From NCBI GenBank assembly GCA_001001045.1, contig LCIL01000008.1, positions 1-38,234 of the forward strand: 38,234 nt of DNA, written 5' to 3'. This DNA is from Candidatus Woesebacteria bacterium GW2011_GWA1_44_23. Lineage in GTDB: Bacteria > Patescibacteriota > Microgenomatia > UBA8517. A model generated the notes under the pieces. It did not search any database, had not been told where the DNA came from, and saw nothing but the letters and a program-made list of their open reading frames with translations. Both the position numbers and the translations under genes were made by a program. This document shows positions 1,441-36,434 of the stretch, one piece after another; the stretch's first letter is position 1, and the number at the start of each line of letters is the position of its first letter.

Positions 1441-1806
1441 ATGCCCACTATGTTAAGCGAAATAGAGCCAAATCAAGTAGTTACAGAACAACAAATACTT
1501 CTCCCTGTAGCCCAAATAATAGATGGTTCTTCATATAAACCAACACAAGCGAGAGTGATAGGCACATTTCCCACATCTGCAAAATCCATACAGGATTTAT
1601 TTCCCGAACAAGAGTATGAAGAGAAGAGTATACAACTAGCCAAAAAGGCTCTTGGATCGCTTTCGACTGAGTTTTCAGCTGAACAATTGAAAACCGTTAT
1701 TACCGAAGTGGAATTTCTTACAGAGAGTTGGCTTGACGAATTTGAACGGCAAATTTTCAAAGGCTCGACATTACAAGAATTACTTCATGAGAAAGGAGGC
1801 AAATGA
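1441..1806 (+). CDS. Hypothetical 121-aa protein, overlapping the recombinase start
   Basis: ORF with promoter upstream; stop overlaps the recombinase ATG (ATGA). Confidence 0.75.
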   Translation: MPTMLSEIEPNQVVTEQQILLPVAQIIDGSSYKPTQARVIGTFPTSAKSIQDLFPEQEYEEKSIQLAKKALGSLSTEFSAEQLKTVITEVEFLTESWLDEFERQIFKGSTLQELLHEKGGK

Positions 1807-3338
1807 AATCTGATAACCATATTTATGCAGACGGAAAACTAGCAGTACTTTATCTTCGTGTGTCCACAGAAGAACAAGTCGATAATTTTTCTTTAGGCAC
1901 GCAAGAAGAAATTTGTAAAAAAGAAGCAGAAAAACGCGGCTACCAGGTGATCGAAATTTTCCGAGAAGAGGGCAGATCTGCTAAAAGCATCACAGGCAGA
2001 CCCGTGCTCATTCAACTTCTTGAATATTGTCGAAAACATAAACACGCTGTACAAGCAGTGTTCGTTTATCGTCTTGACCGCGTATCCCGTATCACTGCTG
2101 ATTATTTAGCCATTCGAAAGAAACTAACCGAAAATGGAGTTACCATACTATCCGCTACCGAACCGACCGGAGATAGCCCAACCGAAAAACTGGTTGAGAC
2201 TATTCTTGCCGGATTTGCTCAGCTTGATAACGACATACGAAGCGAGAGGTCAAGAAACGGTCTTAAGGCACGTTTTCTTTCCGGCATGGTTGTTACTGGC
2301 CAAGTTCCATTGGGTTACGCTGTTCAGGCAGGGTACGCAGTTAAAAATACAACCAATTGGGATTTAATGAAAAAAGCCTGGGATCTCATGGCCACAGGGA
2401 CAAAAAGTCTTCAGGAAATGGCAAATCTCATGAATGAGTGGGGACTAAAGGAACATCGGGGTAATAGAGAATTTATTATCAGAGCCCAACGCGTCGACGT
2501 CTTATTCAGAAACAAATTTTACGTGGGAGTTATCACCTCCAAAACATATCTTGAGGAAGTAAAAGGACAGCATGTGCCCATGATCACAGAGGAACAATAT
2601 TATCGCGTACAAGCCATTATAGACGGTAGAAATCCCAATAAGGTGGCTTTGGCTAAACGGAATCACAATAACCCCGACTTCCCGCTACGCCGAATCGTTC
2701 GGTGTGGAGTTTGCGGTCTGGGAATGACAGGCGGTTGGAGCAAGGGCAGAAATGCTCGCTATGCATATTATCGTTGCGGCGGTGTATGTAAAGGCATTGC
2801 CGCAAAGTCAGAAATACTCGAAAGTTCAGTTGTTCAAACACTTAAACAAATAACACCCAAAAAGGAATGTCTTGATCTTTTTATTGCGTTTCTTTACCGG
2901 ACATACCACGAAAGATTATCGAGATTACAAAAAATCAAAAGCGCTGCTGATCAGGAAATTGCTACATTAAAAGCTCTTAGAAAGACTTTAGTTGAGAAAA
3001 ATCTAGCCGGTGTCTATTCCGATGAGGTATATAAAGAGCAAAACGCTGTTATTGAAGACCGAATGACAAAAGCTCAAGTCGTCAAAGACGACGCCACGAT
3101 TGATAAATACAACATCAACGATGTAACGACTTTTATACGAACATTACTTGCTGATTTAGGGGAAACATACAAACGCTCGAACCTAAGTCAGATAAAAGTA
3201 CTCTTGGGTTCAATATTTCCGTCCGGACTGGCTTGGAGACAAAATGGTACATTGAACCACCAGATTAGCCCGATTTATCAATCTATTTGCACCTTTAACA
3301 ACGGTGCCATCTCCTCTTGTGCCAAGGGCGGGAGTTGA
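1803..3338 (+). CDS. Large serine site-specific recombinase
   Basis: N-terminal resolvase motif YLRVSTEEQVDNFSLGTQ, VYRLDRVSR, recombinase domain, Cys-containing zinc-ribbon-like segment (RCGVCGLGMTGGW...YYRCGGVCKG), coiled coil. Confidence 0.95.
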   Translation: MKSDNHIYADGKLAVLYLRVSTEEQVDNFSLGTQEEICKKEAEKRGYQVIEIFREEGRSAKSITGRPVLIQLLEYCRKHKHAVQAVFVYRLDRVSRITADYLAIRKKLTENGVTILSATEPTGDSPTEKLVETILAGFAQLDNDIRSERSRNGLKARFLSGMVVTGQVPLGYAVQAGYAVKNTTNWDLMKKAWDLMATGTKSLQEMANLMNEWGLKEHRGNREFIIRAQRVDVLFRNKFYVGVITSKTYLEEVKGQHVPMITEEQYYRVQAIIDGRNPNKVALAKRNHNNPDFPLRRIVRCGVCGLGMTGGWSKGRNARYAYYRCGGVCKGIAAKSEILESSVVQTLKQITPKKECLDLFIAFLYRTYHERLSRLQKIKSAADQEIATLKALRKTLVEKNLAGVYSDEVYKEQNAVIEDRMTKAQVVKDDATIDKYNINDVTTFIRTLLADLGETYKRSNLSQIKVLLGSIFPSGLAWRQNGTLNHQISPIYQSICTFNNGAISSCAKGGS

Positions 3339-3403
3339 ACCCGCACGCTCTTTCGAGCACACGCTCCTGAAGCGTGCCTGTCTGCCAATTTCAGCACCTC
3401 GGC
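3320..3403 (-). tRNA. tRNA-Leu(CAG)
   Basis: GCCGAGG/CCTTGGC acceptor (one G-U), long variable arm, GGTTCAACTCC T-loop, anticodon loop TTCAGGA; no encoded CCA. Confidence 0.93.
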
Positions 3404-8457: not shown

Positions 8458-8940
8458 ATGAAAGAGAGGGGTGCATTCGAAAAAGCGAGAATCGACGGAA
8501 TACTTAACGCGCTTTCGGAAGGTAAAACTGGTTACGATGAATTAAGTGAGGCCGGCAAAACGTCCGAATCAAGAGCAATCGAAGATATTGGCTTGGAATC
8601 CGAAAGAAGATTCACCAGGTACGCAAGACAAGTGGATTTTATAGAATGCGTACAGGACGCCGTTCCCTATGAAGACGCTTACGAAGGAGTTGATAAATGG
8701 TTGAGGTTTAAACCTTATAAAAAGCTACCAGATCTTCCCGTTCAGGTTAAAAGTTCATTCAGGGATGTGAATTCATTCAGGAAAAATCCTAAATACAAAA
8801 ACCGTGGCGGCATGGAAATCGTAATAAACTGCGGCCCCTCTATCAATTACGGAATATTTCTTAGACAGTTAACACTGGAGGTGAACAGAATTAAGATCTC
8901 ACTCGAAGAAAGCCCTTCTCTGGGAAGGTTTATTGTTTAA
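8458..8940 (+). CDS. Hypothetical 160-aa protein, possible PD-(D/E)XK-like nuclease (QxK variant)
   Basis: E-rich helix, GVDKWLRF...LPVQVKSSF pattern resembles D-x(n)-(E/Q)xK; weak. Confidence 0.55.
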   Translation: MKERGAFEKARIDGILNALSEGKTGYDELSEAGKTSESRAIEDIGLESERRFTRYARQVDFIECVQDAVPYEDAYEGVDKWLRFKPYKKLPDLPVQVKSSFRDVNSFRKNPKYKNRGGMEIVINCGPSINYGIFLRQLTLEVNRIKISLEESPSLGRFIV

Positions 8941-9038
8941 AGATAGCAACTCTTTCAAAATCCGCTATTACGCTTTTTATTATTATGATATTTCTTTAGC
9001 AAACATCATATAACTATCTTTTTAAACCTAGGCACAAA

Positions 9039-9299
9039 TTATTGCCTCGGTTCCATCGGACGGGCTATATTAACGTTAATCTTGCGGCCTTTAAGGTCTG
9101 CCTGATTAAACATTTCTATAGCTTTTTTAGCCTCTTCATCGCTGCCCATGGTTACAAAACCAAAGCCGCGGCTTCTTCCTGTCATCTTGTCGCTTATAAC
9201 GGCGGCATCGGTAACACTTCCCGCACCAGCAAAAAGAGCCTTAAGGTCGTCTGCCGTTACTTCCCACGACAAATTCCCTACAAAAAGTTTAGATTCCAT
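9039..9299 (-). CDS. RRM-domain RNA-binding protein
   Basis: RNP2 KLFVGNLSWE and RNP1 RSRGFGFVTM; SD-like GGAGGTGA upstream. Confidence 0.95.
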   Translation of the reverse strand: MESKLFVGNLSWEVTADDLKALFAGAGSVTDAAVISDKMTGRSRGFGFVTMGSDEEAKKAIEMFNQADLKGRKINVNIARPMEPRQ

Positions 9300-12226: not shown

Positions 12227-12640
12227 ATGGAAAGCGGACATGAAGCGGAAGACTTCAGAAAGAAATCCGTTCTTGCCGTATGCTGGGCAGGAACCGACAG
12301 GAGCCAATATATTGCCGAGGAATTAAATAGAAGGAATTATTTTGCAACAAGCGCAGGTGTTTTGAAAAATAATAACCATGCGGTCTCAAATTACGTCACA
12401 CCTGCCGATCTGTCCAACGTGGGTATCGTCGTTTTTGCTTCCATACACGAAAGGAATGTTTTTTGTAAAGACGAAAAGCTTAAAGCAATTGTCAAAAAAA
12501 ACGGTATAGAAGTCAGAGTGCTGAATATTACCGAAAGCGATAAGGACAGGGCACACAATTACGGCAAGGTGGAAGAATTAAAAGCCGAAATTTCAAAACA
12601 GCTGGACTGTATCGGTTTAAAGGACCTCACAAATCAATAG
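12227..12640 (+). CDS. Low-MW phosphotyrosine phosphatase-like protein
   Basis: CX5R-type loop AVCWAGTDRSQYIAEEL; start placed at 12227, 6 nt after TATAAT. Confidence 0.65.
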   Translation: MESGHEAEDFRKKSVLAVCWAGTDRSQYIAEELNRRNYFATSAGVLKNNNHAVSNYVTPADLSNVGIVVFASIHERNVFCKDEKLKAIVKKNGIEVRVLNITESDKDRAHNYGKVEELKAEISKQLDCIGLKDLTNQ

Positions 12641-13608
12641 TTCAAATATTTGTCGATATTTGCCAGGTGCTCCTTATAGGTTTTTGCGCAGTGTATTTCT
12701 TTATATACATCATGCAAATAGTATAAACACTCGGTAGTCTCTGGGTTAAGGGCGGCTTCGATGGCATCGATTCCAGGACTGCAGATGGGGGTGGGGGGAA
12801 GGCCTTCGTTCAGGTAACTGTTATACGGCGAGTCGCTTTTCTTTTCGGCTATATTTACGCTACCCCACCACTTTCCGTTTTCATTTTTGCCCAGCGTGTA
12901 CTGCATTGTCGCATCAATTTGCAAACGCATTCCGGTATCCAGCCTGTTCCAGATGATTCCCGATATTAACTTCATATCTTTTGCTCCTGCCGCCTCACGG
13001 GCAATAAGTGAGGCAATCTTTACTCCCGTGGTCCATTTTATGTTTTTGTCGGCAAATTGCGGCAAGAGAGGAGACATTTTTTGATTAAAGTTATTAATAA
13101 ATCTTTGGGCAACGGCCTCGGGTGTTTCATCCAGCGGAATTAAGTAAGTATCGGGATAATAAACCCCCTCAAAATAATCGGAACCTAGATTTTTGTAAAA
13201 CGAATTCCACGAAACCAGTTGACTATCGTTCCAATTGAGGGCGTCAGCCAAATATTCTCCCAATTGTTCCCTCCTTACACAAAATGATTCGGTAAACCAG
13301 ACCAAATCGGCGTTTCCGGTTATTTTTTTCATAACAGCCCAGGCGTTCATGTCCTGAGACAGCCTGTAGCCGCCGGCTTTTACGTCGTAGCCTCCGGAAA
13401 AGTTATCTAGGAGAAATTGGAAAGCACCTGAGTCCCTTATGAATTTTTGATCCTGCAGGGCCTTGGAAACGTCAAAATTTTCCGTATTCTCGGGAACAAC
13501 AAAAACCTTAACTTCTTTCGAATCCCCGACGGATCCAAAACGGCTCCAAACCATATATAAAATCAGGAATGTCGCTGTCGGAATGAGGATAAATTTAAGA
13601 ACCTTCAT
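12634..13608 (-). CDS. mltG: Endolytic transglycosylase MltG
   Basis: YPDTYLIPLDETPE, ASLIAREAAGAKDMKLISGIIWNRLDTGMRLQIDATMQYTLG, SPYNSYLNEGLPPTPICSPG; start set at 13608 by TAGAAT spacing. Confidence 0.92.
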   Translation of the reverse strand: MKVLKFILIPTATFLILYMVWSRFGSVGDSKEVKVFVVPENTENFDVSKALQDQKFIRDSGAFQFLLDNFSGGYDVKAGGYRLSQDMNAWAVMKKITGNADLVWFTESFCVRREQLGEYLADALNWNDSQLVSWNSFYKNLGSDYFEGVYYPDTYLIPLDETPEAVAQRFINNFNQKMSPLLPQFADKNIKWTTGVKIASLIAREAAGAKDMKLISGIIWNRLDTGMRLQIDATMQYTLGKNENGKWWGSVNIAEKKSDSPYNSYLNEGLPPTPICSPGIDAIEAALNPETTECLYYLHDVYKEIHCAKTYKEHLANIDKYLNY

Positions 13609-13849
13609 GTCCCATTCTATCATCTGATTCAGGATGGGGTTTCCCTGCAAAATTGGGGCAGCCTGACAGAGCGGCCGCTTGTTCTATTTGAGACTTTATT
13701 TCCACTTTTCTGTCCGACGGAAGTTTATTCAAAAAATGACCTTTTTTAAACTTCTGCACACGGCATCCCACATCTTTACCGCAGCGGACTCCATAGTTGG
13801 CCATAAAACTACATTCGGAGTATTGAGCTTCGGACGGCTTTTCGTGCAT
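13595..13849 (-). CDS. Small Cys-containing hypothetical protein (84 aa) overlapping the mltG start
   Basis: TAAAAT at 13856-13861, 6 nt before ATG; 14-nt overlap with mltG start. Confidence 0.5.
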   Translation of the reverse strand: MHEKPSEAQYSECSFMANYGVRCGKDVGCRVQKFKKGHFLNKLPSDRKVEIKSQIEQAAALSGCPNFAGKPHPESDDRMGHEGS

Positions 13850-15399: not shown

Positions 15400-16464
15400 C
15401 TATTTAAGATGTCTGTCAAAGAATTCAACGGATCTTCTCATTGCCGTTGAAAAACTATCGGAAAGGTTGTGGTCGTCTCCTTCGTAAAGAAATAGTTCGG
15501 CTTCTTTTCCCGCTTTATCCATCAGCCCTTTTAAATTTTCGGAAAATTCACTCGGAACGGAGGCGTCAAGGGTTCCGTGATGGATTGAAAGGGGACCCGA
15601 TATATCCGCAAGGTAACTTGTTGCGGAGATGGAATTCCAAAAGTCGGGATTTTCTTCGGGTGTTCCGAAAGCGGCCTGAAGTTCATCCCTCCATCTCCTT
15701 GCGCTTGAAGGAATTCCGGGAGGAGGGGTGGAGGCTCTTCTTCTCCAACTGCTTATCATTTCGGGGTATGATCCCACAACCCCAGCCCAAATAACACCCG
15801 CTTTTATATCATCCGATACAACCATGCTTCTTAAGGTAATGAATCCTCCCATGGAGTGTCCCCACATTCCGATCTTTTCGGGATTGACCGAAGGATACTT
15901 TTTAACGGATGAGACGGCATTCAAAGCATCAACCGTATACGCGTTTGATCCGTATGCTCCTGTCGGCTCGCCTTCGCTTTCTCCATGACCCCGGAAATCG
16001 GGCTTAAAGACAACGTACCCGTTTCTGGCAAAACCGTCAACGTAGGAAACATATTTCTCGGTGGTCCTGTACTGGGCAGGAGGAATATAGCCATGGTTAA
16101 ATATTATCGCCGGGAATCCTTCCGGGGGTTCTTCTTCCTCGGGTACTGTTAAAAGGCCGTAAACCTTTAATCCTTCCGACCGGTATGAGGCAATATACCG
16201 TTTGTAATTTGAACCCGGGGTAAGTGTTTCTTCAATAATCAAATCGCTTCCGGGATAGTTTCCTTTTCTAAGGTACTCGATGGAAAGAAGAAAGGGGACC
16301 CCAAGTTCGGAGGATCCGACAAACCCTCCTTCATCCAGGAAATTGTTTAAATCGGTCGGGAAATCGGGTTTTTTTGGAAAATATCCCTTTGAGTAGAACA
16401 AATAGCCGCCAAAAAGAGCAAATAAAAGTACCGAAACTATTAAAATTTTCTTCTTTTTGAACAC
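15400..16464 (-). CDS. Alpha/beta hydrolase (prolyl-oligopeptidase-like)
   Basis: IIFNHGYIPP, PDFRGHGESEGEP, IGMWGHSMGGFITLR, YEGDDHNLS; internal GTG at 16464 fits TAAAAT 16470-16475. Confidence 0.9.
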   Translation of the reverse strand: MFKKKKILIVSVLLFALFGGYLFYSKGYFPKKPDFPTDLNNFLDEGGFVGSSELGVPFLLSIEYLRKGNYPGSDLIIEETLTPGSNYKRYIASYRSEGLKVYGLLTVPEEEEPPEGFPAIIFNHGYIPPAQYRTTEKYVSYVDGFARNGYVVFKPDFRGHGESEGEPTGAYGSNAYTVDALNAVSSVKKYPSVNPEKIGMWGHSMGGFITLRSMVVSDDIKAGVIWAGVVGSYPEMISSWRRRASTPPPGIPSSARRWRDELQAAFGTPEENPDFWNSISATSYLADISGPLSIHHGTLDASVPSEFSENLKGLMDKAGKEAELFLYEGDDHNLSDSFSTAMRRSVEFFDRHLK

Positions 16465-17157: not shown

Positions 17158-17865
17158 TCAGAAGGGTATATCTTCCTGTACTGGTTTATCTTCAATGTGG
17201 GCAATTGTTTCTCCAACGTGCCTATAAGCGCACCATTTACAGCTTTTTCCCTCTTCCGGTGGAGGACCGGCAAGAAGTTTGTCAATTTCGGCAATAAACT
17301 TAATAAATCCGGGCTGGTCCATCGGCACCTCAAGCCATTTGGGAGGAAATGTCAAAAGTGCTTCACCGTCTTTATAGGAAACCTGATCAGGGTAAAAAAT
17401 CAAAAGACCCATCCTGTTAATTTCAACCGGTTTTCCGGATTTCGGATTTTCCAGGGCAAACTTATAGGCATTAAGTTGTGTTTTATATTTATCGATTTTC
17501 CCGACATCCGGATTACTGATTTTAAGATCAACCAAAGTATTGCCATCACTCCCATTAACCAGAAGATCATATTTGCCTTTTAAATAAACGTGTGTTCCCG
17601 GAATAATCTTCGAGTCCACCCAACCTTCCTGCATGATTACTTTCCCTTCCGGTAAACTTTCAGAAAGAGTTCTCAGTTCTTTCCCCACAAGACTTCCCTG
17701 AATCCTGGTGTTTATGGCAGAAAATACCCCAGGCATCGGCATGCTAGGTTGATAAATTCCGTTTTTAACTTTAAGGTAGTAGCAAAGTTTGCATTCTTCG
17801 TAAAGGTATGCAAAATCAGAAGGGGAGAGCTTAAATATTTCCTGGTGGATGTCTCTTTCCGGCAT
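17158..17865 (-). CDS. PD-(D/E)XK nuclease with two CxxC pairs (Cas4/RecB-like)
   Basis: [40 protein letters not shown] and [10 protein letters not shown]. Confidence 0.8.
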
Positions 17866-17906
17866 ATGAGGCTATTATACCACCATAAAAATGCTAATAT
17901 TCGATT

Positions 17907-18347
17907 GTGAAAAACAGGGTACCTACTTTAAAAGAATTTAATAGTATTTATTGGAGAACCGTAGGTAACTTATTTCATAAAATATCCCCTTGCATCGAAC
18001 ACCCGGGGTTACTTTTTAGGGACGTTCATATTCTATATCATGACTTAAAGTATAGATTCTTCCTTGTTACCGATCCTCCACCTATACAACATAAAAAAGA
18101 GCAGACGGATAATTATTTTGAAAGAATAGACCCAAAACACGGATTGAGATTTTATGAATGCATGGCAAGTAAATGTTCCGGGATTGATCTTGATTATGCA
18201 ATTCCCCGCGTGGATGAATTTTATAGCGACAAAAGATCCAGGAAAATTATAAGGGAATTTTTAATAAGCTTAAATCAAGCCGAACAACAAGTATTGGATA
18301 ACTATAAAAAATATTTAATTAGAAACGAAATACTAAAAGGGAATTGA
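17907..18347 (+). CDS. Hypothetical 146-aa protein
   Basis: GTG start 6 nt after TAATAT (17895-17900); intact ORF. Confidence 0.6.
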   Translation: MKNRVPTLKEFNSIYWRTVGNLFHKISPCIEHPGLLFRDVHILYHDLKYRFFLVTDPPPIQHKKEQTDNYFERIDPKHGLRFYECMASKCSGIDLDYAIPRVDEFYSDKRSRKIIREFLISLNQAEQQVLDNYKKYLIRNEILKGN

Positions 18348-18385
18348 GGCAATTATACTACTCTGAAAGTGATAATATTTAACTA

Positions 18386-18919
18386 GTGGCATTCGATTTT
18401 AGTCAAATCATTTTCCAATCCATTATTAATTCAATCAAAATAGCACCAGCCTTATGGCTTATGATTCTTGCACTTCTTTTTGCAGCCACAGCAATTTGGG
18501 TTTTCAAACTTCTTCATCTTGCAAAAGCAGACATATTCAAAATAGACAAAATGAGTGGCGAGGAATTCGAAACTTTCCTCGAAATATTATTTAGAAACGA
18601 TGGGTTTAAAGTAAACCACACAGGTAGTTCGAATAAATATAAAGGAGATTGGGGTGCAGATTTAATCATTGAGAAAAACGGAATAAAAACTTCTGTCCAA
18701 GCAAAAAGGTGGAAATGGATGGTTACTGAAAAATCAGTGCAAGAAGTTGTTACTTCAAAAGCACAATATGGTTGCCAAGGTGCAATGGTTATTACAAACA
18801 GTCATTTTTCCTATCACGCGAAACATTTAGCACGAGTTAACAATGTCTTACTTTGGGACAGAAACACTCTCGCTTCAGAAATATTGAGAATAAGAAAACA
18901 AAATAAAAGAGAACAATAA
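18386..18919 (+). CDS. Mrr-like restriction endonuclease-fold protein with N-terminal TM
   Basis: MSGEEFETFLEILFRNDGFKVNHTGSS...GDWGADLIIEKNGIKTSVQAKRW core. Confidence 0.88.
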   Translation: MAFDFSQIIFQSIINSIKIAPALWLMILALLFAATAIWVFKLLHLAKADIFKIDKMSGEEFETFLEILFRNDGFKVNHTGSSNKYKGDWGADLIIEKNGIKTSVQAKRWKWMVTEKSVQEVVTSKAQYGCQGAMVITNSHFSYHAKHLARVNNVLLWDRNTLASEILRIRKQNKREQ

Positions 18920-19034
18920 TCAAGAAAAATTCTAAATAAATTATTTTGGGATGACAAAATTAATACATAAAATCTTTTTGTACAGTCACTAGGGTATTGA
19001 CTTTCCGCCATTTGAATGTTTAAATCTAGAAGCT

Positions 19035-19074
19035 AAAACTGGAGAGTGAGCCTTTGGCCGCTAGCCAGTTTTTT
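19035..19074 (+). terminator. Probable rho-independent terminator after the Mrr-like gene
   Basis: AAAACTGG ... CCAGTTTT followed by TT. Confidence 0.55.
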
Positions 19075-19078
19075 GCAT

Positions 19079-19876
19079 TTAAGGAATATTGACAATCGCT
19101 TGAAAGTTTTTATATAAATTCTTCTTTTTCAGCCCCATACTTTGAGGGGTATGGAATAGTTTATTTTCCGCTTCTTTTCGTATCATTCTTTCATAACCAT
19201 TTAATGAAGCTACTTTGACAATTCTATTTTTTACCCTGTGACTAAGATTTAAACCGTAGCCCAACAAATCCGCCACTTGGGTAAGTGTATCCATGTTTCT
19301 TTTAGTTGAAAACGATAGAGAGGTAAGTCTTCTTTTAATTTCAAGGTGGTCAAGCTTATCAGATGGAAGACCTAAAGATTGATAACCAAAAAACGCTTCA
19401 TAGATGGAAATATCCTGAATTGGCGTAGAGGCTTCTTGTATAAATTCACCCGTTTTATCTTGAGCAACCAACACTCTTATAAAGTTTGCAATTAAATGTT
19501 CATATGCAATCTTTATTACTCTTCGTTGCTTCCAATTCAAGTTATAAACAGATTTTTGATCAACAATTATACAAATTGTATATAACGGGCATTTATTAAA
19601 AAAAAATTTAAGATCATTTATAAATTCTCTAAATTTCTTTAGGTCGTTTTTAAAAATTGTAAAATCTTTATCTTTTCTGCCAATATTTTTTGAATGAAAC
19701 ACCACATTTACCCTAGACCAATATTTAAATTTGATGTGATCAAGATTGGTAGAAATTTCAGAAATTCGATCCTTATCAACTACACATCCCGTCAAAATAA
19801 AAAAGGGCGAAACTTTATATCTTGCTGGGACTGACTCACCCAACTCATCAACAAACAATGCTAATTTCCTATTCAT
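19079..19876 (-). CDS. DUF3800 domain protein
   Basis: ALFVDELGES N-terminal motif, C-terminal VADLLGYGLN. Confidence 0.75.
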   Translation of the reverse strand: MNRKLALFVDELGESVPARYKVSPFFILTGCVVDKDRISEISTNLDHIKFKYWSRVNVVFHSKNIGRKDKDFTIFKNDLKKFREFINDLKFFFNKCPLYTICIIVDQKSVYNLNWKQRRVIKIAYEHLIANFIRVLVAQDKTGEFIQEASTPIQDISIYEAFFGYQSLGLPSDKLDHLEIKRRLTSLSFSTKRNMDTLTQVADLLGYGLNLSHRVKNRIVKVASLNGYERMIRKEAENKLFHTPQSMGLKKKNLYKNFQAIVNIP

Positions 19877-19938
19877 AAAAACAATTCAATCCTACTCCAA
19901 ATTATCAATATTTCAAATCCTGAATAGAATCGAAGGGT

Positions 19939-22900
19939 TCAAAGGTCAAACTTTAATACTTCATCGATCTTTTTTTGCAATTTATCTGTTTCTACTAACG
20001 CTACTATCATTTTTTGATAATGCTCAATATCCCCATTTGTTAATTCCGTACCTTTACGATCCTTCAACCATTTTTGTGCGGGCTGGTACCCGCCAATATA
20101 AAAATTCCATGCAACCTCAGGGACATTTCCAAAAAATTGATTTTGATTTATATAAACAGCTCTATTCTTGTAATCAATTTTTTCTATAATATTCGGTCCA
20201 TCAACGGGATAGGTGGTAACAAATTGATCCAATTTGGGTGATTCAAACAAATGAGAGGATCTTAATTCATTTCCAAAAGCAGCAATTTCTTTAAACTCCT
20301 CCTTATTCCTGGGGTATGGGACTCTTGGAAAACCACTTTTTAGGAGTTCTTTGTATTTTTCTCGGTAATTTGGCGAATATAAAACTGCATAAATATAATC
20401 AAAAATATTTTCTGGCGAAGTCTTTCCGATTATTTTTTCTATTTTATCAATTATCTCCCTCTTGAAATTTGGAACCCGAGACCCGTCCTCATTATAAATA
20501 TATAAAGGGCCAAGGTAACTAATTCCAGCACCCGCGCTTTTGTTACCTGCGTAGCATTGGTCTATGATGTATTTAGAAATGAAAATATCAAACTTATATT
20601 CTGTTGACATTGGCCTAATCCAACTCAAGCCAAAGTTTTCACCTTTTAAAAAATTCCCGAATATTTTGAACCTTCCCCAATCTACCATCTTTGGTGAATA
20701 ATAAATATAACGTTGATCAAAAGGCCTGTAGCTTATAAATTTTATTAAGTCTTCGGGCATTTCATCGATTACGGATTTTCTAGCAGTAGCGAGTTTCCAC
20801 CCTCTGGAGTCTCCCGCCAAATACTTTCCATTTTGTTTATTGGGGAATAGCCATGCGCGTATTTCATTATCAGAATAATTAAAATCTGAAAAACGAATGA
20901 TTCTCTTTAACAGTGAATCTTTATCGGTATCGATTACAACAGCATCCCGTGCAGTTACAATACCCGTCGAATTTCTTACAAAAAGTTCATTTACATCAAA
21001 CCCTTTAAGATATTCCTTTTCAAGTTTTGCAGAACTTCCTTCTTTAAAAAATAAATTAGGGAGACGGGGTTCAATAAGCTTCCATTTAATATTTTCTAAT
21101 GACGAATTATTTAACTGTTCATATTTTTTAATTCGCTTCCCCCATAAATCTTGAGAATATAGTTTTGCTAGATCTCCTTGTTTTTTCTTTCCGGTCTTTA
21201 CTGCCAGAAGAATTGAAACACCTTGTTGTATATCAAAAACATTTTCATCCTTTCCCCCATCTGGTGGTATCTCATGTTTCTTTGAATTGCCATGAAGATC
21301 CATCGAATATAAATAATCAAAAGTGTCCAGTAAACTCCATCTCATTCCTCTAAATGTTGGATTATCAAGGTAACCATGGTTAGTAATAAAACCGACAATA
21401 CCTTCGCCGTTTTTCTGAATCATTTTTTCCGCAAGCGCAATAAACTTTACATAATCATCATTAAGCCAATGTTTCTTTTCCCGAAGTCTTTGTTTTCCCC
21501 CTGGCTCTACCTTATATTTCTCAACAAGTTTGTTAGCATACTCTGTTTCATTTGATGAAATTCCACTATAGGGAGGGTTACCAATTACGATCATGATGGG
21601 TTTTTCATTTTTTATTTTTGAGGCCGCCTTCGATTCTTCGGCGATACTTTCCGCCAACCCAAGAGCAAATAAACCCTGTTGTTGGATACCGCTTTCTTCT
21701 AATGAGTTAGTAAGATAAATACCCAACCTACGATCATTAAAATATTTAAAGCCGGTATCTCTGAAAGCCAAACTTAACTTAAGATGGGCGATTGTATATG
21801 GAGTCATCATTAACTCAAATCCATAAATACGGGGAAGCAAATCATGAAGCACGTAAGGGTGCCATTGTCCTTTTTGTCCGGTTTTGATCAAGTGCTCATA
21901 AATATTCCGAATAATTTTGCTAATAAAAGTGCCTGTTCCAACGGCTGGGTCGAGGATTTGAACTTTATGCAAACCATTTTTCGTTTTTGTTGTACTTGAT
22001 AAACCCCCAGCGAGGTCAAAATCTTTCTTAAGTAAATAATCAACTGAACGTACTATAAATTGAACCACAGGAACGGGGGTATAGTACGCACCTATTTTTT
22101 TACGTAAATCTGGATCATATTCCTTAAGGAAGTCTTCATAAAAATGGATTACGGGGTCTGGTTCAATGTGTGTATTACCCCACAAATCCTTTTTGTAATA
22201 TTCTTTCATAAGTTCAGAGACGTCCGCATGAGAAAGCACATCGCACAGTTCATCAACAATATATTCGAGTCGCTTGTCGAAGTTGGGCCCAACAATATGA
22301 TCAAAAAAATCTCTAAGAAAAGGGTTTGATCTTGGTATTAAGTCACGTGCTTCTTGTCTAGAAAACGTGCTTTGAGGGTCGTCTTCATGTCGAGCTGCAA
22401 AAAGGCCGTAAACAAGCGTCTGTGCATACATATCGGCAAAAGCGTCCTTAGTTAAATCATGAACCAAAAGCTTTTTAATGGTCTCGTAAACTTTAACAAT
22501 TTCGGTGTTTATATCGGAATCATTAGCAAGGTATTGTCGTAGATTATCTCGAATTCTTCGAGCTTTACCTGCCATAATTTTTGAAAGATGTACGCCTGAT
22601 TTAATAGGCTCCTTCTGTGATTGGGAAAAGTCAATTAAGGTTTTTGCAAGATTTACAAAATTTTGAGGAAATTGCCTAATTATACGTCCCTTAAGATTAT
22701 ATTCTGCAATTTTTATTGGTTCTCCATACCGAATACCATTTCTATAAAAACGAAATTCTACATAATCGGTAAGCACTAGGTTTGTGTATCCGTAGTACCG
22801 AGTCATTTGTTCTGAATCTTCAATCCTGTCAAGAGATACACCAATATCTTTAGCTTCTATATACAATATTGGAACATCATTTTTAAGTACAATAAAGTCT

Positions 22901-23073
22901 GGTTTGTTGTGTTGTTCCGCTTTTGGATCGTGATCTATACGCCTGACATTAATTTCTTCAAAAATCTTTTTGATTAAGACCTCGAAATCAGTACGATAAC
23001 CCATCTCGCTAGTTTCCACATGAGCAAATTTAGCAGAGAGAGATGAAATATAATCAGCAAAAACATCCTGCAT
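19939..23073 (-). CDS. Type IIG / ISP-like restriction-modification enzyme (fused N6-adenine methylase)
   Basis: N-terminal KPDFIVLKNDVPILYIEAKDIG nuclease motif, LDPAVGTGTFISKIIRNIYEHL, IVIGNPPYSG, ISP-type C-terminal region (FDQRYIYYSPKMVDWGR...). Confidence 0.93.
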   Translation of the reverse strand: MQDVFADYISSLSAKFAHVETSEMGYRTDFEVLIKKIFEEINVRRIDHDPKAEQHNKPDFIVLKNDVPILYIEAKDIGVSLDRIEDSEQMTRYYGYTNLVLTDYVEFRFYRNGIRYGEPIKIAEYNLKGRIIRQFPQNFVNLAKTLIDFSQSQKEPIKSGVHLSKIMAGKARRIRDNLRQYLANDSDINTEIVKVYETIKKLLVHDLTKDAFADMYAQTLVYGLFAARHEDDPQSTFSRQEARDLIPRSNPFLRDFFDHIVGPNFDKRLEYIVDELCDVLSHADVSELMKEYYKKDLWGNTHIEPDPVIHFYEDFLKEYDPDLRKKIGAYYTPVPVVQFIVRSVDYLLKKDFDLAGGLSSTTKTKNGLHKVQILDPAVGTGTFISKIIRNIYEHLIKTGQKGQWHPYVLHDLLPRIYGFELMMTPYTIAHLKLSLAFRDTGFKYFNDRRLGIYLTNSLEESGIQQQGLFALGLAESIAEESKAASKIKNEKPIMIVIGNPPYSGISSNETEYANKLVEKYKVEPGGKQRLREKKHWLNDDYVKFIALAEKMIQKNGEGIVGFITNHGYLDNPTFRGMRWSLLDTFDYLYSMDLHGNSKKHEIPPDGGKDENVFDIQQGVSILLAVKTGKKKQGDLAKLYSQDLWGKRIKKYEQLNNSSLENIKWKLIEPRLPNLFFKEGSSAKLEKEYLKGFDVNELFVRNSTGIVTARDAVVIDTDKDSLLKRIIRFSDFNYSDNEIRAWLFPNKQNGKYLAGDSRGWKLATARKSVIDEMPEDLIKFISYRPFDQRYIYYSPKMVDWGRFKIFGNFLKGENFGLSWIRPMSTEYKFDIFISKYIIDQCYAGNKSAGAGISYLGPLYIYNEDGSRVPNFKREIIDKIEKIIGKTSPENIFDYIYAVLYSPNYREKYKELLKSGFPRVPYPRNKEEFKEIAAFGNELRSSHLFESPKLDQFVTTYPVDGPNIIEKIDYKNRAVYINQNQFFGNVPEVAWNFYIGGYQPAQKWLKDRKGTELTNGDIEHYQKMIVALVETDKLQKKIDEVLKFDL

Positions 23074-23114
23074 CCTGGCCTATTTTACTACATTTCCCAA
23101 AGATTATAAGGATA

Positions 23115-23348
23115 TTATCTTCTATTCGTTCTTTTCCAAACTGAAGTAATTCTACAAACACCTTTTGAATCGGTAAGGTAGGCAACACCAATTTCGTAGC
23201 CATTATATTTTCTTACGGAGTTGTAGCCTGCACCGTTTGTCCACTTTTCAGGAGTTCCTTTATTGTAGACGTCCATTACCTGCCCTTCGGAAAGGCCAAA
23301 AGAAGCCATTTTTGAAAGCGCTTTGTTTGTAAAAATGATATTAGCCAT
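23115..23348 (-). CDS. DUF4258-like small protein
   Basis: FTNKALSKMASFGLSEGQVMDVYNKG...YEIGVAYLTDSKGVCRITSVWKR. Confidence 0.6.
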   Translation of the reverse strand: MANIIFTNKALSKMASFGLSEGQVMDVYNKGTPEKWTNGAGYNSVRKYNGYEIGVAYLTDSKGVCRITSVWKRTNRR

Positions 23349-23555: not shown

Positions 23556-24077
23556 CTAGGGCATGAAGAAGTAATTGTACTCATCAAAGGCAAAATGGCC
23601 CGAGGGTCTATTTAAAAGAATGTCTGCAATCTGCCAGGCATCCATATCCTCAGAGATCCTGTACTCGGCGTTTTTGTCGATGGTCCTGGTTTTACCAACA
23701 CTAATCGCATTTTCGCCTGAAGTTACGTCTTTCGTGTGCTCTAAAGCATATCGGAAACTTTTTTCATCCCTGATAAAACCGTAATAAGCGAGGTTACTGA
23801 CCAGGGCGTCCAGGGTTGTGTTGTTGCTGATTCTCAGATCCACCGTTCCGTCAACTCCGGGCTTTGACCTGATCTCCTGCGCTTCCTGAGGTGTCATTCT
23901 CAAATTTTGGATAAAATAATCTTCAACTTTCTTAGGGGAATTCCAATTCCTTCCCGGGGCATCAAAGCTTTCATCGATAGGATTGGATAGTTTAGAATAT
24001 CCAAAAATACTGACAACTCCAAGAAATATTATGCCTGCAATTACATAAAGACGGTATTTGGAGAAATATTTAACCAT
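23556..24077 (-). CDS. MltG-like N-terminal (LysM-like) domain protein without catalytic domain
   Basis: NLAYYGFIRDEKSFRYALEHTKD...AEYRISEDMDAWQIADILLN parallels MltG KALQDQKFIRDSGAFQFLLDNFSG...GGYRLSQDMNAWAVMKKITG. Confidence 0.7.
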   Translation of the reverse strand: MVKYFSKYRLYVIAGIIFLGVVSIFGYSKLSNPIDESFDAPGRNWNSPKKVEDYFIQNLRMTPQEAQEIRSKPGVDGTVDLRISNNTTLDALVSNLAYYGFIRDEKSFRYALEHTKDVTSGENAISVGKTRTIDKNAEYRISEDMDAWQIADILLNRPSGHFAFDEYNYFFMP

Positions 24078-24698: not shown

Positions 24699-24788
24699 AA
24701 AAACATTTTACATCCTTTTAAAACTAAACTCCATACAGGGCAATTGGCGACTCTGATTAGACAAATATGAAGTGAAGATAAATTTGTA

Positions 24789-24831
24789 GCGCCTGCAGGA
24801 TGTAAATAAAAATAAACAATCCTGCAGGCGC
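24789..24831. repeat. Perfect 13-bp inverted repeat (hairpin)
   Basis: GCGCCTGCAGGAT ... ATCCTGCAGGCGC with 17-nt A/T-rich loop; 20 nt past the stop of the 24852..25067 gene. Confidence 0.9.
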
Positions 24832-24851
24832 AGTCCTCGGTATTACAAATT

Positions 24852-25067
24852 TCATAAATGGCGGAGCCTATTGATCATTAGCCATACGGCTAATAATAAA
24901 AACCATACGGTAAACAACCCTCCACAACATGACGTATACGCCATTCCCAGGTCCAAATGTGATACGTAATTAAACACGTCTCTTACCATTGCGTTAAACA
25001 AAGAAAAAGCAAACAGCAAAATGAATGGGATCGCGATCAAAAACAACAGCCAATGTGACGTGCGCAT
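24852..25067 (-). CDS. Small two-TM membrane protein (71 aa)
   Basis: MRTSHWLLFLIAIPFILLFAFSLFNAM...SCCGGLFTVWFLLLAVWLMI; SD AAAAGGAGG; consensus promoter. Confidence 0.75.
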   Translation of the reverse strand: MRTSHWLLFLIAIPFILLFAFSLFNAMVRDVFNYVSHLDLGMAYTSCCGGLFTVWFLLLAVWLMINRLRHL

Positions 25068-25135
25068 TGCACAGCCTCCTTTTCTTTAAAGTGCCAGGTT
25101 AGTTTATATATGAAATATAATACTCAAGGAACCAT

Positions 25136-25164
25136 ATTATAGGACAGGTGAGTATTTATGTCAA
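25136..25164 (-). promoter_or_regulatory. Perfect consensus sigma70 promoter TTGACA-N17-TATAAT
   Basis: Minus strand: TTGACA (25164-25159), 17-nt spacer, TATAAT (25141-25136). Confidence 0.9.
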
Positions 25165-26046: not shown

Positions 26047-26574
26047 TTAAGGGTAGCAGTTGGGCCAGAGGGCACTTTTTCCGATACTTAGGGCGTAGGC
26101 AGCGGTTTGAACGGCTTCCTCCGCATTAAAGCGCAGGTTTGCGTCCGGATCCTCTCCGATTTTTACTCTCAGGTTTTTCCAGGTAACGGCTCCGAACTGA
26201 TAAAGGCCGGCATATCCTAAATTTTGGGCTAAAGGGTTAAATCCTGATTCGCAGATTGCCATGTAGCGCAAAACGTCAGGGCTTACCCCATACTGCCCTG
26301 CAAACCTGTTTATAAACTCATTAATTTGCTGGGAAGTGTATTTTGGCTGCGGAACGGGCGTTGGGGTTTTGGTCGGGGTAGGTTTGGGCTTTGGTGTAGG
26401 GGTAGGTGTCGGGGTGGCAGTCGGCGTTGGAACGGCGGTTGGAACGGGTGTTGCCGTAAAGGTGGTTACTTCTGCCAAAATTTTTTGCTGGGACTTGTCC
26501 CTATTTATCAAGAGTAGGGCAATGCCTTCCCCTGTAAGAACCAAAAGAAGAAAATATAAAACAAGCGTTTTCAT
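26047..26574 (-). CDS. Transglycosylase SLT/Rpf-like exported protein with Thr/Pro linker
   Basis: YGVSPDVLRYMAICESGFNPLAQNLGYAGLYQFGAVTWKNL; TPTPTPTPKPKPTPTKTP linker. Confidence 0.85.
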   Translation of the reverse strand: MKTLVLYFLLLVLTGEGIALLLINRDKSQQKILAEVTTFTATPVPTAVPTPTATPTPTPTPKPKPTPTKTPTPVPQPKYTSQQINEFINRFAGQYGVSPDVLRYMAICESGFNPLAQNLGYAGLYQFGAVTWKNLRVKIGEDPDANLRFNAEEAVQTAAYALSIGKSALWPNCYP

Positions 26575-32267: not shown

Positions 32268-32278
32268 CCCTTCAAAAT

Positions 32279-32307
32279 TTGACATTTGTTCATTATTGTT
32301 ATAGGAT
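32279..32307 (+). promoter_or_regulatory. Sigma70-like promoter TTGACA-N17-TAGGAT
   Basis: TTGACA 32279-32284, TAGGAT 32302-32307. Confidence 0.65.
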
Positions 32308-32350
32308 AGTTTAGTTGAAATATAGCTTTTTCATCTAAGGAGGTGAAATA

Positions 32351-32500
32351 ATGAACGCCAATATAGTTATTGGTTTATTGGTGATTCTTACAGTATCTGT
32401 CTCGGTTTCGATGTTTTGTATTTTCTTAAGATTGACAGATATAGAGGTCGATTTAGCAAATATCGCCTCAGAACTTAAAATCGCCAACAATAAAAAATAA
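32351..32500 (+). CDS. Small single-TM protein (49 aa)
   Basis: SD AAGGAGGTGAAATA-ATG; MNANIVIGLLVILTVSVSVSMFCIFLRLTDIEVDLANIASELKIANNKK*. Confidence 0.75.
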   Translation: MNANIVIGLLVILTVSVSVSMFCIFLRLTDIEVDLANIASELKIANNKK

Positions 32501-32508
32501 TTTCAACC

Positions 32509-32554
32509 GGGAGGTGAGATCCAAAAAATCTAAGCTAATAAAATCTCACCTCCC
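32509..32554. repeat. Perfect 12-bp inverted repeat (hairpin) between the 49-aa gene and thrS
   Basis: GGGAGGTGAGAT ... ATCTCACCTCCC, 22-nt A-rich loop. Confidence 0.9.
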
Positions 32555-35568: not shown

Positions 35569-36434
35569 ATGCAGGAAGAACTGATTAACTTAAGGAATGA
35601 GGCCATAGCCCAAATTTCGGGTTCCAAAGACAGTGGGGAACTTGAGGAATTAAGGGCGGCTTATCTGGGACGCAACGGAAAATTTACGCTTCTTGTTAAA
35701 AAAATTAAGGATGTGCCGGCGGATCAGCGCAAAACCTTCGGAATTACCCTCAACGAAAGTAAGGTTGCCATTGAAAACCTGATTTCGGACAAAAAGCAGG
35801 CCCTTTTAAAAAGTCTTTCCGAAAAAAGGGATTGGTTTGATTTGACCATGCCCGGGTTTAAGCCTTCTTTGTCGACACAAAAGGAACCGGCCTCAAACCC
35901 CTTGAAACAATTCTCAGAACGCAAACCTCGGCAATGCAAGGAAGGGTAATGAAACTGGGTAAGCCCCCTTTTAGAGTTTTGGTCCCGGGAAGAAACTTCA
36001 GATACGAACAGGTGGATGCCTCCCACGGGTTTGAGTTTTGGCAGGTTGAAGGATTTGTGGTTGATGAAAATATTCATCTGACCGATCTTTTCGGAACAAT
36101 TAAATACGTATTGGGGGAACTTTTTGGGAAAGAGGTAAAGACACGCTTTGCCACGACCAATTTTCCTTTTGTGGAACCCGGGGTTGATACTTATTTAGAG
36201 TGTACCATTTGTAAAGGTAAGGGCTGTTCTTTCTGCAAAGGAACGGGCTGGAGTGAAATAATGCCTGCCGGCATGATCCACCCGAATGTGCTTAAGATGG
36301 CAGGAATAGATACGAAAAAGTGGAACGGGTTTGCTTTTGCAATAGGACTTTCCCGGATTGTAAACCTCCGCTATCAGATAAAGGATTTGAGAACTCTGAC
36401 AACGCCCGATATGAGGATTCTCAGTCAATTTTAG
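35569..36434 (+). pseudogene. pheS: Phenylalanyl-tRNA synthetase alpha subunit, apparently missing an internal segment and frameshifted
   Basis: N-terminal frame ...RDWFDLTMPGFKP then, in another frame, FFVDTKGTGLKPLETILRTQTSAMQGRVMKLGKPPFRVLVPGRNFRYEQVDASHGFEFWQVEGFVVD... Confidence 0.85.

Follow-up and report, generated by a model that had tools for sequence, protein, structure and literature searches.

The window we analyzed is the whole of contig C8 (38,234 nt) of a 596-kb draft genome that is 93.7% complete and that, judging from its size and gene content, probably belongs to a reduced, Patescibacteria-like bacterium. On its minus strand, from 25164 to 24780, lies a compact one-gene unit, here called unit 1, whose ORF (25067..24852) encodes a 71-aa protein (Table 1). 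The initial annotation of this stretch had described, with no strand given, a perfect consensus promoter, a leader of about 70 nt, a strong Shine-Dalgarno (SD) sequence, the small ORF, and a perfect 13-bp hairpin beginning 20 nt past the stop codon. All of these are present, with two amendments: the predicted leader is somewhat shorter than described, and nine more outer base pairs of the hairpin had been missed. The suggestion of a stand-alone, possibly strongly expressed unit also fits these parts, which run from a private promoter through leader, SD, and ORF to a hairpin at the end, and the opposite (plus) strand has no consensus promoter. What that strand does carry is two -10-like boxes without a -35 box, inside the leader and promoter region and directed away from the ORF. 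There is no second copy of the unit 1 sequence in the host genome, and an Rfam scan of the window returned tRNAs only.

Table 1. Features of unit 1 and of two other small SD-led units of the host (window coordinates unless a contig is named).
Feature	Position	Strand	Basis
Unit 1, sigma-70-type promoter TTGACA-N17-TATAAT, 12/12	25136..25164	-	sequence match
Unit 1, predicted 5' leader, about 62-65 nt	25068..25132	-	start site inferred from -10 box
Unit 1, Shine-Dalgarno AAAAGGAGG, 9 nt, 7 nt ahead of ATG 25067	25075..25083	-	sequence
Unit 1, 71-aa orphan ORF, two TM helices	24852..25067	-	ORF and model
Unit 1, 5' arm of closing helix, TCCTTGAGTATTATATTTCATA	25109..25130	-	computed pairing with 24834-24856
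Unit 1, 3' arm of closing helix, stop codon onward	24834..24856	-	computed pairing
Unit 1, terminal hairpin, perfect pairs in two blocks (9 outer, 13 inner) separated by a 12-nt bulge on one side	24780..24852	-	sequence and fold
Unit 2: TTGACA-N17-TAGGAT, SD AAGGAGGTGA, 49-aa one-TM ORF 32351-32500, hairpin 32509-32554 (12 bp, loop 22)	32278..32554	+	sequence
L056 unit (G000:C3): TTGACT-N17-TATTAT, SD AAGGAG, hairpin 13 bp, 24-nt loop, T tail	15421-15761	+	sequence

The two promoter boxes of unit 1, at 25164-25159 (-35) and 25141-25136 (-10), form the only 12/12 match in the window when spacings of 15-19 nt are allowed, where chance would give 0.037 matches, or 0.003 at a spacing of 17. Across the host genome there are three perfect promoters at spacings of 16-18, unit 1 included, and none in a reversed-pattern control. 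The count is 1-10 per genome in relatives, where a number of the promoters that we inspected belong to leaderless or tuf-type genes. We considered the perfect promoter as a mark of foreign or non-coding RNA genes and rejected it, because relatives use such promoters for leaderless genes and for tuf.

The contrast with surrounding genes, which the initial annotation had emphasized, stands for SD use and is weaker for the promoter, given the counts of perfect promoters in the host and its relatives. Most genes in the window have no SD and many carry a -10 box directly ahead of the start codon, and in 277 kb of the host, which contains 265 ORFs of at least 100 aa, just 10 of these ORFs show a 6-nt SD close to a start. 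The 3' end of the host 16S rRNA, found on contig C13 (L065), is GGATCACCTCCTTTCT, so the host can use the unit 1 SD. We found no description, in the open full-text literature, of bacteria of this kind having a leaderless and an SD-led class of genes together. On the same contig, the 16S match stops at model position 1387 (contig coordinate 9583), with GGATCACCTCCTTTCT about 1 kb further on, and a 153-aa ORF on the same strand (8777-9238) resembles a homing endonuclease; given this ORF and the gap ahead of the 3' end, the host 16S is likely interrupted by an intron.

The inner arms of the terminal hairpin (24831-24819 and 24801-24789) form 13/13 pairs around an A+T-rich loop of 17 nt. Beyond the bulge, AAATTTGTA (24852-24844) and TACAAATTT (24788-24780) add nine further perfect pairs, for a 3' stem of 22 bp in total whose 81-nt fold has an energy of -32.2 kcal/mol and a z-score of -6.8. 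The T tail behind this hairpin is weak, which makes termination here uncertain.

The reading of the product as a double-TM protein was borne out by AlphaFold2, run on the single sequence, which predicts a helical hairpin with helices at residues 3-34 and 40-70 and a mean pLDDT of 80. A Cys-Cys pair stands at the start of the second TM helix, and the distribution of charges suggests an N-in/C-in topology. The gene has the lowest codon-usage score in the window. No relative of the protein was detectable in several hundred related genomes, phages, plasmids, IMG/VR, Pfam, PHROGs, NCBIfam, PADLOC, or the PDB. By taxonomic level, there were no homologs among 57 genomes of the order and one weak match, within a 425-aa frame, in 374 genomes of the class; in 380 genomes across the phylum, 35 had matches at E <= 0.1, which is about chance level, and many of these matches had internal stops or lay inside long frames. 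A single match on a GTDB contig was rejected, as it covers a TM segment in a Bacteroidetes protein that is longer and unrelated. A DNA-level search of unit 1 against plasmids and phages found nothing, and a fold search with the two-helix model gave no significant match.

Class II holins are similar to this protein in size and topology, so we considered whether unit 1 is a phage remnant in the chromosome that encodes a holin or another lysis peptide. The protein lies within about 65-95 aa, has two TM helices, and is basic at both ends, and a gene that looks by eye like a lytic transglycosylase (26047-26574) is found about 1 kb upstream. Nevertheless, there is no PHROG, phage, or IMG/VR match and no structural match, the neighbors scanned are non-phage genes, and both a methyltransferase gene and the strong private promoter lie between unit 1 and the transglycosylase-like gene. 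We therefore regard a phage origin of this kind as highly improbable.

A further property of unit 1, which the initial annotation had missed, is found at the level of its predicted mRNA. The first 22 or so nucleotides are complementary to the sequence from the stop codon onward, and the energy of this duplex, -20.4 kcal/mol, was matched by 0 of 2000 shuffled leaders. In the fold of the full-length RNA (z -4.75), this closing helix is dominant (about 18.8 expected pairs), and the terminal hairpin is open in its outer 9 bp; when the leader is removed in silico, these 9 bp re-form. Because 24844-24852 serves in both structures, the closing helix and the extended 3' stem are mutually exclusive. 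We rejected masking of the SD as a role for the helix, since the computed unpaired fraction of the SD is 0.47 with the post-stop stretch and 0.46 without it. With the SD open, the closing helix would more probably protect the mRNA against decay than repress its translation.

The ORF might instead be incidental, the locus being a structured non-coding RNA that has a strong promoter and a terminator. This would be compatible with the stability of the full-length fold, the low codon score, and the missing protein homologs. We consider this quite unlikely, given that a 9-nt SD stands at ideal spacing ahead of the ATG, that two TM segments are found in just 3/383 spurious ORFs of similar size, that Rfam has no match, and that the arms of the helix flank the ORF exactly, from the start of the leader to the stop codon.

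In Staphylococcus aureus, the icaR mRNA has a UCCCCUG motif in its long 3'-UTR that pairs with the SD, and it is like unit 1 in being a bacterial mRNA whose 3'-UTR is paired to its own 5'-UTR (PMC3868564). In unit 1, by contrast, it is the extreme 5' end that pairs with the stop-codon stretch, in a message of about 350 nt.

Paired ends are also a property of type I toxins, the main rival explanation, in which a membrane-active peptide is encoded by an mRNA held inert by pairing of its ends until it is processed, and an antisense RNA acts as the antitoxin. The hok and AapA mRNAs use long-distance pairing of their ends, and the AapA/IsoA and hok/Sok systems resemble unit 1 in having a short mRNA, a small membrane peptide, a stable 3' structure, and alternative folds (PMC6733600). 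A small hydrophobic protein, a strong promoter, a stable RNA with paired ends, and two mutually exclusive folds would all suit such a toxin, but SD masking is the central part of hok/AapA control, and in unit 1 the SD is left open by the pairing. Typical toxins of this kind are shorter than 71 aa, and a protein of this length with two TM helices is large among them. There is also no evident antisense gene, the opposite strand having only the two -10-like boxes, though in a host whose genes often lack a -35 box an antisense promoter may be present. Other members of the class to which unit 1 belongs encode soluble proteins (L072, described below), and we found no sequence relation of unit 1 to AapA/IsoA or hok/Sok. 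On balance, we believe that a type I toxin is unlikely.

The initial annotation had set the signals of unit 1 in sharp contrast to those of the genes around it, but unit 1 is not the only gene built in this way. Perfect inverted repeats with arms of at least 11, loops of 3-40, and at least 5 G+C occur just six times in 277 kb of the host, and three of the six sit behind SD-led small membrane ORFs: unit 1, unit 2, and the unit at L056. All three have TTGAC(A/T)-N17 promoters with the -35 box 72-97 nt ahead of the start codon. In a discovery set comprising the 277 kb of the host and four family genomes sampled at 200 kb each, a long-loop perfect hairpin lies within 35 nt of the stop codon in 8/50 SD-led ORFs of at least 100 aa, compared with 2/884 other ORFs (Fisher p 1.6e-9), a count in which some SD-led calls will be false because SD starts were called by motif. 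Short-loop hairpins have no such link (1/50 SD-led ORFs and 22/884 others). The definition of the class was shaped partly on the data on which it was tested, so the fairer number comes from replication in 800 kb outside the discovery set, where the link is weaker (5/52 versus 10/657, p 0.003). Since unit 1 is a member of a small SD-led class in the host and its family, we read its signals as a minority expression mode of the host and not as alien to it.

The hairpins of class members resemble intrinsic (rho-independent) terminators in having a G+C-rich perfect stem soon after the stop codon and, in several members, a T tract after it. They differ in their loops, which are 17-37 nt in class members compared with the 3-8 nt of a standard terminator scan, and in the weak T tail of unit 1. 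Genome G017 shows the link between SD and long-loop hairpin most strongly. There, SD-led genes that end in a long-loop hairpin (L081, L084, L086, L087) mostly encode large, accessory-looking proteins, and some genes near L087 resemble ThiF/JAB-type proteins by eye.

End-to-end pairing was also found in some of the other units. Unit 2, which is placed between typA and thrS and has an SD of 10 nt, has a minimum-free-energy fold in which GTTGAAAT, at the 5' end, pairs with ATTTCAAC after the stop codon, beside the terminal hairpin (p 0.05). The same fold places the SD of unit 2 within a local hairpin, and the 3' hairpin arm of the unit is complementary to this SD (-15.2 kcal/mol), which brings unit 2 closer than unit 1 to the icaR kind of pairing (PMC3868564). 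Unit 2 has no homologs in the order or in IMG/VR. The 63-aa ORF at L056 (15512-15703), which has a C-terminal TM helix and no Pfam match, belongs to a unit with no clear closing helix.

Support for conservation of such a helix comes from L072 in genome G006, a 66-aa SD-led gene (13352-13552) in whose leader GTGTTGGTTAGCTCTTTT pairs with AAAAAGAGACTAACCAACAC just ahead of a 16-bp hairpin (p<0.001). In L152 of genome G007, a relative of L072 at 44% identity, the helix is kept as GTTGGCTGG/CCAGCCAAC (duplex p 0.002), with one T-A pair changed to C-G and one A-T pair to G-C, both of them compensatory. In L153, a more distant relative, the closing helix is not clear (p 0.07). The pairing of 5'-UTR and 3'-UTR in unit 1 is a computed one, and compensatory changes are seen in the L072/L152 pair only. 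Among 23 small SD-led units with promoters that were found by rule, 5 (22%) have cognate pairing at z<-2, compared with 1.4% of 138 swapped pairs. Across all SD-led ORFs of at least 100 aa there is no significant shift (Mann-Whitney p 0.11), and we therefore claim the pairing for small units alone. Testing the whole leader against the whole 3'-UTR is uninformative for most units because the hairpin arms dominate the duplex. End-to-end pairing looks real for some members of the class and is not a constant of it. We also noted on host contig C13 (L065, 3204-2500, minus strand) an SD-led pair consisting of a 67-aa two-TM ORF and a 112-aa soluble ORF, both with AAAGGAGG, which has the promoter TTGATT-N17-TATACT, a T-tailed terminator, and no Pfam match.

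As for origin, the proposal that unit 1 might be an acquired element is supported only indirectly: the gene is an orphan that is missing from all relatives searched, no other gene of the window has so low a codon score, and a low-GC stretch that includes restriction genes borders on it. No donor, boundary repeats, or empty site was found. In relatives, no empty site could be seen, and the flanking genes are not syntenic there. The low-GC stretch (17158-23348) encodes a Cas4/PD-(D/E)XK-like nuclease, an Mrr-like endonuclease, a DUF3800 protein, and a Type IIG/ISP restriction-methylase, and going by sequence it is a defense island adjoining unit 1.

It could also be that the repeats act at the DNA level and delimit a small mobile cassette, either a MITE or an attC-like one, the RNA pairing being a by-product. 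The imperfect inverted repeats 25109-25130 and 24834-24856 bracket the ORF, a bulged hairpin lies directly behind the stop codon, and the low-GC stretch with its restriction genes adjoins. In integron attC cassettes, too, a hairpin that is imperfect and bulged stands close behind one gene; unit 1 differs from integron cassettes as a single gene with a private promoter, and its hairpin arms have no GTTRRRY/RYYYAAC core pair (by eye, 24775-24860). With the promoter outside the repeats, no target-site duplication visible by eye, no second genomic copy, repeat sequences in other units that are unrelated, and one pair of units with compensatory changes, we judge a DNA-level element to be very unlikely.

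Several other features of the window deserve mention. An SD-led gene for a large serine recombinase (1803-3338) has one of the next-lowest codon scores, and its 3' end is overlapped on the opposite strand by a tRNA-Leu(cag) gene (3319-3403, ARAGORN), which is perhaps an integration site. On the plus strand at 35569-36434, pheS is split over two overlapping ORFs, one with the N-terminal domain and one with the core domain from profile position 91, so that part of the gene seems to be missing or frame-shifted; this may be an assembly error. A short YceG-like fragment (23556-24077, minus strand) has a Pfam E-value of 0.002, below the cut-off, and what is likely a full-length MltG/YceG-like gene, judged by eye, is located at 12634-13650.

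Taken together, we see about an even chance that unit 1 is an accessory one-gene unit that uses the minority SD mode and produces a closed-loop, probably stabilized mRNA. The sequence provides the parts of a self-contained unit: a full sigma-70 promoter, a leader about 63 nt long, an SD that fits the host ribosome, a two-helix 71-aa membrane protein, and a long-loop hairpin. Once transcribed, the first 22 or so nucleotides of the mRNA would pair with a similar length at and behind the stop codon and close the message into a loop, in which the SD and start codon would stay as accessible as before, and the terminal hairpin would seal the 3' end. Such a loop may shield both ends from decay, the 5' end from a 5'-end-dependent RNase and the 3' end from a 3' exonuclease, and the protected mRNA would allow steady production of the small protein, a hairpin-shaped membrane peptide. 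If the leader were removed or otherwise engaged, the post-stop arm would be expected to switch into the extended 3' stem. Among the RNA-processing enzymes of Patescibacteria, RNase J, RNase III, and PNPase are discussed in a survey (PMC12641178), and these are the kinds of enzyme that a closed RNA would meet.

Unit 1 would then belong to a minority class in this family, made up of SD-led genes that are for the most part orphans and carry their own signals, in contrast to the leaderless mode of the housekeeping genes, and many members of the class may stem from horizontal transfer. What is new here is the end-to-end pairing of the unit 1 mRNA and the small class of similarly built genes, which had gone unremarked. 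More broadly, and as a tentative idea that we think somewhat improbable, this reduced-genome family may combine leaderless housekeeping mRNAs with SD-led closed-loop units, ending in a long-loop terminator, for fast-changing small proteins, with turnover of the proteins on an RNA architecture that stays in place. Little is known in these bacteria about the control of mRNA lifetime or about small membrane proteins. If the class holds, its signature of full promoter, SD, long-loop 3' hairpin, and end-to-end pairing would find orphan small genes where homology fails, and bacterial closed-loop mRNAs could be put to the test on this class.
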